DNA of 64,000 bases from Bacteroidales bacterium. Lineage in GTDB: Bacteria; Bacteroidota; Bacteroidia; Bacteroidales; ML635J-15. This document shows, piece after piece, positions 27,671-29,836 of this stretch (positions within the stretch are counted from its first letter, which is position 1; every line of letters starts with the position of its first letter). The stretch covers positions 124,001-188,000 of the forward strand of contig JAISPG010000078.1 of assembly GCA_031275085.1 (NCBI GenBank), given 5' to 3'. The translations under genes and the position numbers were made by a program. Under the pieces are notes generated by a model. That model made no database searches and was not told the origin of the DNA. It saw only the letters and a list, made by a program, of their open reading frames with translations.

Positions 27671-28696
27671 ATGAAAACAGTAAAAATTTTATTATTATTT
27701 GTTGCTACAATTGCAATGTTAAGTGGATGTAAAGATGATGAGGAATTTGCAAAACCTACAATATCATTTGTTGGAACAGAAAACCCGGTAGTTGCTGAAT
27801 TTGTCGGCGGCGTTTACGGAGTTAGTGTACAGGTTGCAATTAAAGCTGAAGGTAAAATCAAAACAACAGTAATTAAAAAGTATATTGACGGAAGCGTTAA
27901 CGATGCTCAATCAAATGCTTTAACAAATGCAGTTAGCGGTGACAGAAACCAAACAGATTTTGCTTTTACTTTAACTGATGCTATCAACGAAGCAGATTTT
28001 GAAACATCTGTTAAGTACGAAGTTATTATTACTGACCAGGAAAATCAGGAAACTAAAGCTACTTATACAGTTAACAAATCAGCTGCTCCTGTTACTACAT
28101 ATACTCATACTTTTACAGTAAAAGAAGGAACAACTAATGTTATTCAAGGAGCAACAGTAACTATTAATGACGAAGTAAAAACAACAAATGAAAACGGTGT
28201 AGCAAGTTTTACTTTAGAAGCAGGCGAATATAACTATTCTGTTGCTAAAGAAGGTTATGTTGATGCAACAGGAACATTTACAGTTGCAGAAGACGGAAAC
28301 ACTAATGTTGAATTAACTCCTGAAACTACTCCTTTATCTGATTGGGGTGCTGAAATCAGAATTGATATTCAACAAGAAAACACTACTATCGGAGTAAAAT
28401 ATTCTACAAATCCAGATGCATCGCATATGAAAATTGTTCCTGCAACAGGTTGGGAAAATTTTGTGGTTTTAACATCTGCTGATTATACTACAGTAGAAGA
28501 GTTAGTAGCTGCTTATGAATCTAAAACTCCAGTTGCTGAACATATAACTGAATATACTGCAAGCAAAGCATATTCAGAATTTTACCTGATAACAAAAAAA
28601 GGTGATGAATATGTTCTAGTTCATAATTATAAAGCAATCCATTATATGGATGGCGGAAATGCAATAAACTACATGTTATTCAAAGCTAAAAAGTAA
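27671..28696 (+). CDS. Lipoprotein with carboxypeptidase-regulatory-like (PEGA-like) domain
   Basis: IAMLSGCKDDEE lipobox; GTTNVIQGATVTINDEVKTTNENGVASFTLEAGEYNYSVAKEGY. Confidence 0.75.
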   Translation: MKTVKILLLFVATIAMLSGCKDDEEFAKPTISFVGTENPVVAEFVGGVYGVSVQVAIKAEGKIKTTVIKKYIDGSVNDAQSNALTNAVSGDRNQTDFAFTLTDAINEADFETSVKYEVIITDQENQETKATYTVNKSAAPVTTYTHTFTVKEGTTNVIQGATVTINDEVKTTNENGVASFTLEAGEYNYSVAKEGYVDATGTFTVAEDGNTNVELTPETTPLSDWGAEIRIDIQQENTTIGVKYSTNPDASHMKIVPATGWENFVVLTSADYTTVEELVAAYESKTPVAEHITEYTASKAYSEFYLITKKGDEYVLVHNYKAIHYMDGGNAINYMLFKAKK

Positions 28697-28875: not shown

Positions 28876-29532
28876 ATGAAAATAATAAAGACCTTACCTG
28901 TTAGTTTTATTTTGTTAGTTATTCTTGTGTTTAGCAGTTGTAAAGAACAATACATAAAACCAATAATAAACTTTAGCCCTGATAAAAACAATGAAGTGCT
29001 GGATTTTACTTCTGTCGATAATATAGAAATAGCTTTCGATATTAAAATTATTTCAGAGAATGAAATAAAAAATATCAGCATATCTGAATATATATACGAA
29101 GGCGATACAATCATTGAAATAAAGGAACTGCCTCCGGTTGAAGGGTACGCCGGCAAACTTGACTTTAATTATCATTTTACAAAAACGTATATTGAAAAAG
29201 ATTTTAAAGGCAGGTCAAAAATAGATATAGTTTTTACTGTTTTTGACAACAAAGGCCAAAGTGTTGAAAAATTCTACAGATTAACACATTCCGGGAAATA
29301 TGTTGTCGATTTTATTATTACAGATACAGAAGGTACTCCGGTTGATGATGCTGTTATAAAACTTGGAGAAACGATAAACGATACAGGAATATACAAATTT
29401 ATTGTCTCTGCAGGAAATTACAATTATGAAGTATCAAAAAACAATTACAATACTTTAACAGATAGTATTAAAGTAGAAAATATATCATTGGAGGTTAATA
29501 TTCAGTTAGAAACAGAAACAGATCTGCAATGA
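28876..29532 (+). CDS. Lipoprotein with carboxypeptidase-regulatory-like domain, paralog of 27671..28696
   Basis: LVFSSCKEQ lipobox; GTPVDDAVIKLGETINDTGIYKFIVSAGNYNYEVSKNNY parallels the upstream gene. Confidence 0.72.
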   Translation: MKIIKTLPVSFILLVILVFSSCKEQYIKPIINFSPDKNNEVLDFTSVDNIEIAFDIKIISENEIKNISISEYIYEGDTIIEIKELPPVEGYAGKLDFNYHFTKTYIEKDFKGRSKIDIVFTVFDNKGQSVEKFYRLTHSGKYVVDFIITDTEGTPVDDAVIKLGETINDTGIYKFIVSAGNYNYEVSKNNYNTLTDSIKVENISLEVNIQLETETDLQ

Positions 29533-29603
29533 TCTGATCTGTATTATTGTGAAAAAAATAGTCAAAAAAGATAATATTATTTTGTTCAATAATTAAAAAA
29601 TAC

Positions 29604-29611
29604 TATTTTTG
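29604..29611 (+). promoter_or_regulatory. Bacteroidota -7 box TATTTTTG upstream of the tRNA pair
   Basis: TAnnTTTG with TTTG about 19 nt upstream; 18 nt before mature tRNA 5' end. Confidence 0.5.
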
Positions 29612-29628: not shown

Positions 29629-29699
29629 TGTCCGATGGTGTAATGGTAGCACTGCAGATTTTGGTTCTGCCTGTTAAGGTTCGAATCCTTATCGGACAA
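29629..29699 (+). tRNA. tRNA-Gln (TTG)
   Basis: Acceptor TGTCCGA/TCGGACA, anticodon arm GCAGA-TTTTGGT-TCTGC, T-arm TAAGG-TTCGAAT-CCTTA; no encoded CCA. Confidence 0.94.
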
Positions 29700-29709
29700 C
29701 TGAAATTAT

Positions 29710-29781
29710 TGACTTGTGGTGTAACAGGCAGCATATAAGATGTTGAATCTTAAGATCTTGGTTCGACTCCTTGCAAGTCAA
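29710..29781 (+). tRNA. Degenerate tRNA-Gln-like gene (TTG anticodon position, G33, mismatched T-stem)
   Basis: Acceptor TGACTTG/CAAGTCA (7/7), anticodon arm TAAGA-TGTTGAA-TCTTA, G18G19 and TTCGA present; T-stem CTTGG/CCTTG has two T-T mismatches. Confidence 0.6.
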
Positions 29782-29783
29782 CA

Positions 29784-29810
29784 AAAAAACCGCTCAATGA
29801 GCGGTTTTTT
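29784..29810 (+). terminator. Intrinsic terminator after the tRNA pair
   Basis: AAAAAACCGCTC-AAT-GAGCGGTTTTTT. Confidence 0.9.
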
Positions 29811-29836
29811 ATTTTTATATTTCCGGTTGTTTTTTT

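Follow-up and report, generated by a model that had tools for sequence, protein, structure and literature searches.

A tRNA-like gene with two fixed mismatches in its T-stem and an anticodon loop closed by a Watson-Crick pair lies behind an ordinary tRNA-Gln gene in the window analysed here, a stretch of 64,000 nucleotides from a member of the Bacteroidales (contig JAISPG010000078.1, positions 124,001 to 188,000), and recurs within the genus. Judged from its sequences, this gene (B) is not decaying. We tentatively read it as a genus-specific tRNA-Gln paralogue that is charged by GlnRS, kept from ribosomal decoding and used as a non-ribosomal glutamine donor, a reading to which we give slightly less than an even chance. 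Few bacterial tRNAs are known to be withdrawn from translation, and the clearest example, tRNA-Gly of Staphylococcus aureus, is linked to a cell-wall enzyme that has been identified. If our reading is true, B would be a conserved counterpart for glutamine, anatomically different and more sharply marked, and would hint at either a glutaminyl-tRNA-dependent reaction still to be discovered or a regulatory RNA aimed at GlnRS; nature has also provided in it an experiment on which T-stem and loop features suffice to keep a tRNA away from EF-Tu and the ribosome. Its hosts belong to a Bacteroidales-like group known mainly from metagenomes. Annotation programs label B an ordinary tRNA-Gln, so that it goes unnoticed, and no description of the RNA was found in the open-access literature, most subscription journals lying outside that coverage.

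ARAGORN called two tRNA-Gln(ttg) genes in tandem, A and B (Table 1); its call for B (29710-29782) ends in a base that falls outside the mature body. B passes the cloverleaf test of Rfam RF00005, scoring 47.0 bits where the gathering cut-off is 29. The sequence-only reading of this locus had described a perfect acceptor stem unlike that of A, a perfect 5-bp anticodon stem, G18 G19 in the D-loop and TTCGA, and the sequence and the ARAGORN structure agree with it on each of these; G33 and the T-T oppositions at 50-64 and 51-63 can be read directly from the letters. In this copy U32-A38 forms a Watson-Crick pair. A common promoter and terminator had also been proposed, and both were located: upstream of A there is a promoter-like TTTG-N19-TATTTTTG arrangement, downstream of B a GC hairpin and T-run. 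A -33/-7 promoter consensus of this form is known in Bacteroidota, and we infer that the pair of boxes drives a joint A-B transcript. Directly upstream of the tRNA genes lie two paralogue-looking lipoproteins (27671-28696 and 28876-29532), both with KPxIxF close to the start and a GEYNYSV/GNYNYEV motif close to the end.

Table 1. Features of the tRNA-Gln A/B locus (positions within the window)
Feature	Position	Strand	Basis or remark
Copy A, canonical tRNA-Gln(UUG)	29629..29700	+	ARAGORN; Rfam RF00005 61.2 bits
Gene B, tRNA-Gln-like	29710..29781	+	ARAGORN; Rfam 47.0 bits; B covariance model (R1) 86.4 bits; 13-gene alignment
A-B spacer, 9 bases	29701..29709	+	About 4-16 bases in relatives
B acceptor stem TGACTTG/CAAGTCA	29710-29716/29774-29780	+	Sequence reading, ARAGORN structure
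B anticodon stem TAAGA/TCTTA	29736-29740/29748-29752	+	Sequence reading, ARAGORN structure
B anticodon loop UGUUGAA (U32 G33 UUG A37 A38)	29741-29747	+	G33 is 29742
B T-stem CUUGG/CCUUG	29757-29761/29769-29773	+	U.U at 50-64 and 51-63
B discriminator A	29781	+	
Promoter-like element of the putative A-B transcript	29581..29611	+	TTTG 29581-29584, 19-base spacer, TATTTTTG 29604-29611
Intrinsic terminator AAAAACCGC-TCAATGA-GCGGTTTTT, then T-rich run	29785..29815	+	Sequence; equivalent after 13/13 B genes

When 41 near genomes were searched, the A-B pair or a solo B turned up again within the same genus. Using a covariance model built from B (R1), the gene was found in 10 of the 26 genomes of the genus (G000, G001, G003, G004, G010, G011, G014, G018, G024 and G041), three of which hold two copies; the 13 genes score 83-100 bits, the ordinary tRNA-Gln of the genus at most 65 bits, and other tRNAs lower than tRNA-Gln. 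Across 295 genomes of the order all other matches to the model stayed at or below 77 bits, and those read were ordinary tRNA-Gln with paired T-stems. Searching 395 genomes of the class and 396 of the phylum for the mismatched T-stem pattern recovered no other tRNA, the few other matches not being tRNA-like on inspection. On these searches B appears restricted to this genus, as far as it has been sampled. Within it, B was not found in G009, G019, G020 or a 12-genome rumen-like cluster. Most of the genomes are fragmented assemblies, and absence calls in the incomplete G008 and G012 weigh little; at the corresponding site in G019, G020 and G009, B is cleanly absent, with no decayed remnant. Synteny via a nearby M16 peptidase revealed no additional B in named genomes. 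In the rumen-like cluster a tRNA-Gln(UUG) (L136:1501-1572) is unusual in its D-arm, which reads TTTGCATAATGGTAGTGCA where the other tRNA-Gln seen have GTGTAATGGTAGCAC. One B-bearing genome, G018, is a large assembly with 13 matches to the B model; three further tRNA matches fall within 4 kb at G018:C426:5706-9449 and may be a cluster of tRNA genes belonging to a prophage or some other element.

What all 13 genes have in common is two T-stem mismatches and an anticodon loop closed by a Watson-Crick pair, rather than G33. Positions 50-64 and 51-63 are unpaired in every copy, always pyrimidine against pyrimidine, so that B lacks the fully paired 5-bp T-stem of a canonical elongator tRNA-Gln; T/C exchange is seen at all four positions, a pair-restoring purine never. 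The fetched loci contain 73 other distinct tRNAs; not one of them has both mismatches, and U33 is present in all. A canonical elongator tRNA-Gln combines U33 with a non-Watson-Crick 32/38, which in the ordinary tRNA-Gln is mostly U-U or U-C; in B the 32-38 pair is Watson-Crick in 13/13 genes, against 1/58 ordinary tRNA-Gln, and occurs as C-G in 11 and U-A in two, a compensatory change. Positions 33/37 are U-A in eight copies and G/A in five. The anticodon is always that of Gln (YUG: CUG in eight, UUG in five). The five G33 genes form one subclade, all with U34, and the remaining B have U33 with C34; the G33 of the window copy therefore looks like a derived state within B. The first pairs are of Gln type (U1-A72 in 13/13, G2-C71 in 12/13), and G18, G19, TTCGA, U8 and A14, the residues of the L-shape, are invariant. 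Pairs are formed at 95.6% in the acceptor stem, 100% in the D-stem and 93% in the extended anticodon stem. When several copies were folded as RNA, the anticodon stem reached 7 bp, leaving a loop of 3 bases, or 6 bp, leaving one of 5. A rod-like fold, in which the anticodon region pairs with the T-loop, was obtained for the window copy and some others; it was not adopted, since alignment inspection indicates that it is lost in C.C-type copies, whereas the cloverleaf covaries.

Viewed in one genome alone, B could pass for a tRNA pseudogene decaying after a tandem duplication: it stands in tandem behind A, it is missing from several lineages, and two mismatches plus G33 resemble damage. The comparison among relatives makes this very improbable. 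Among 68 tRNA-Gln sequences B is monophyletic (support 75.7/97). Its copies diverge by up to 30%, yet of 247 pairings no more than 5 are broken, against 27.5 +- 4.0 expected when the same substitutions are placed at random, in a test that treats the B sequences as independent although they are related. Six pairs have changed on both sides, with compensatory changes in the acceptor and anticodon stems, and the covariation score exceeds that of all 500 shuffles and all slid versions. The recurrence of the same aberrant RNA in 10 genomes, with its stems maintained and so few pairs broken, goes beyond chance. Random substitutions, broken stems and promoter loss, the marks of a pseudogene, are not found in B. 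The earlier suggestion of selection for folding rather than decay is thereby supported by the single clade, the covarying stems, the scarcity of broken pairs and the retention of the T-stem mismatches in 13/13 copies; the compensatory changes for which it had proposed to look in relatives occur at those six pairs (0/500 shuffles as high), and random decay of the second copy was looked for among the relatives and not seen.

The flanking signals point the same way. A TAnnTTTG promoter-like box lies upstream, and a hairpin with T-run terminator downstream, at all 13 loci. In 10 of the 13 cases B is in tandem with tRNA-Gln and apparently co-transcribed; in three genomes it lacks an intact A and has its own promoter-like box and terminator, being alone in G010 and G024 and preceded in G011 by only the last 3' bases of A. 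Such retention of B where A has been lost argues against a pseudogene. It also weighs against the notion that B serves A in cis, whether in processing or as an element close to the terminator, an idea that the short spacer and common terminator of the tandem loci might suggest; the ordinary tRNA-Gln genes of the genus manage without B, and we find a cis role barely credible. At the start of contig G041:C23 (L133:1-139) a B lies near the contig end, followed by a palindromic terminator beyond which a second, inverted B begins; this means either that one terminator serves two convergent B genes or that the assembly is folded back on itself.

In a GlnRS tree the B-bearing genomes fall on both sides of the midpoint root, for which reason an early gain with later losses (in the rumen-like cluster, G009 and G020) would be the simplest history; transfer between lineages may be the alternative. 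Mobile sources were considered and set aside: phages gave no match, plasmids match only pieces of the A copy, and the single T-stem pattern match in viral contigs holds no tRNA. The neighbourhoods of B vary from genome to genome, and as the adjacent genes differ between sites they offer no guilt by association.

The proposed mechanism begins with B being transcribed and processed together with A and charged with glutamine by the single E. coli-type GlnRS. Charging is likely, since B retains the Gln anticodons together with U1-A72 and G2-C71 and a single E. coli-like GlnRS is present; one copy was found in 24 of the 26 genomes, and it is near to the E. coli type of GlnRS whose structure with tRNA has been solved. 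In GlnRS-bound tRNA-Gln the anticodon stem is extended by 32-38 and 33-37 pairs, and because its loop resembles this form B may be pre-shaped for the enzyme. A passage in PMC3664417 cites U33 as a possible GlnRS determinant, in which case the G33 copies might charge poorly. EF-Tu reads tRNA mainly via the T-stem (PMC11415595), and 50-64 and 51-63 are among the pairs that it reads, so the mismatches would be expected to weaken EF-Tu binding. Decoding would be poor too: pairing at 32-38 and 33-37 closes the loop, and one subclade has G in place of U33. Gln-B would then be reserved for a putative transferase, a non-ribosomal use of glutamine. Among the findings that speak against the donor reading are that eight of the 13 copies keep U33 with CUG, leaving some CAG decoding possible, and that B is dispensable, not having been found in G009, G019, G020 and the rumen-like cluster.

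The first of these makes a decoding isoacceptor the strongest rival, together with the fact that B is the only CUG-anticodon tRNA-Gln found in G010, G011 and G024, all incomplete assemblies. Here B would be charged by GlnRS and be slow on the ribosome, reading CAG, for example, slowly or conditionally. The Gln anticodon is kept in all 13 copies and the L-shape residues are invariant, as this would predict; natural tRNAs with G33 or A33 that are able to decode exist (PMC11415595), and a U33G allele of a yeast tRNA-Gln resembled wild type in one growth phenotype (PMC3664417). We nevertheless consider the isoacceptor unlikely, in view of adjacent mismatches at EF-Tu sites fixed in 13/13 genes and present in no other tRNA examined, and of the Watson-Crick 32-38 pair. 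Moreover, G009, G019 and G020 yielded no B and no CUG isoacceptor either, so decoding seems not to require B, and G000 and G018 hold an ordinary UUG and CUG set alongside it.

The charged, shielded donor that we favour has its nearest parallel in the S. aureus non-proteinogenic tRNA-Gly isoacceptors (Giannouli et al. 2009, as reviewed in PMC4052509 and PMC9976931). Passages in these two reviews describe tRNAs, thought to serve the cell wall, that escape EF-Tu by altered 49-65 and 51-63 pairs; by analogy, the mismatches of B should likewise lower EF-Tu use. Like them, B is an extra isoacceptor beside normal ones, is altered at T-stem pairs that set EF-Tu affinity, and otherwise keeps the body and synthetase identity. 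Unlike them, it belongs to Gln and not Gly, has outright pyrimidine mismatches at 50-64 and 51-63 in place of weaker Watson-Crick pairs, has an anticodon loop closed by the 32-38 pair, and retains an invariant G18 G19 where the S. aureus tRNAs have replaced it; nor was a Fem-type partner found for B. B, which is known here as sequence, appears to resemble these tRNAs and is not classed among them. A bolder version, in which B is the first dedicated non-ribosomal glutaminyl-tRNA, matched to GlnRS, detached from EF-Tu and the ribosome and feeding a tRNA-dependent modification, is possible but doubtful.

Other unusual tRNAs share single traits with B. The bacterial A33 tRNA-ProX and a mistranslating G33 tRNA-Ser (PMC11415595) are, like B, natural tRNAs that combine a rare base 33 with other uncommon features. 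Unlike tRNA-ProX, B shows no dual identity, its body being closest to tRNA-Gln and its anticodon that of Gln, and non-U33 is confined to one B subclade. An altered acceptor/T domain is shared with tRNA-Sec, where it reduces EF-Tu use, and with selC*-type tRNA-Cys (PMC7609411); B differs in keeping the 7/5 architecture, and nothing indicates a specialised elongation factor for it. The search for EF-Tu yielded a single copy wherever it yielded any, and no paralogue; a specialised EF-Tu for B was rejected on this count.

The sequence-only reading had left a choice between a non-decoding or regulatory RNA and an unusual isoacceptor. Conservation supports that broad alternative, within which a generic regulatory RNA fits less well; a tRNA charged with Gln and shielded from translation fits better, since B keeps the Gln anticodon and Gln-type first pairs. 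A specific regulatory form would have B bind GlnRS as a decoy, chaperone or glutamine sensor, not as a glutamine donor. The GlnRS-facing features, the loop like that of GlnRS-bound tRNA-Gln and the apparent co-transcription with tRNA-Gln in 10/13 cases all agree with it. There is also a precedent in mascRNA, whose target is GlnRS, as it might be for B: this tRNA-like RNA, itself uncharged, binds and stabilises the human enzyme (PMC9976931). B differs from mascRNA in retaining the Gln anticodon and chargeable features; its acceptor stem and discriminator A are strictly maintained, which suggests that charging matters, and the vicinity of glnS holds no known RNA element. We regard a GlnRS regulator as quite improbable.

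For the donor reading a partner enzyme was sought in the genus and none was found, which counts against that reading. The presence of FemAB, Acetyltransf_6 and LPG_synthase_C does not track B; Lant_dehydr_N gave zero matches, with its control equally silent. The LPG_synthase_C protein, which is MprF-like and in known cases tRNA-dependent, occurs in only two genomes of the genus (G000:C2:73973-74764 and G041:C200:1578-2375). These two are sister genomes, and both carry the G33 form of B.
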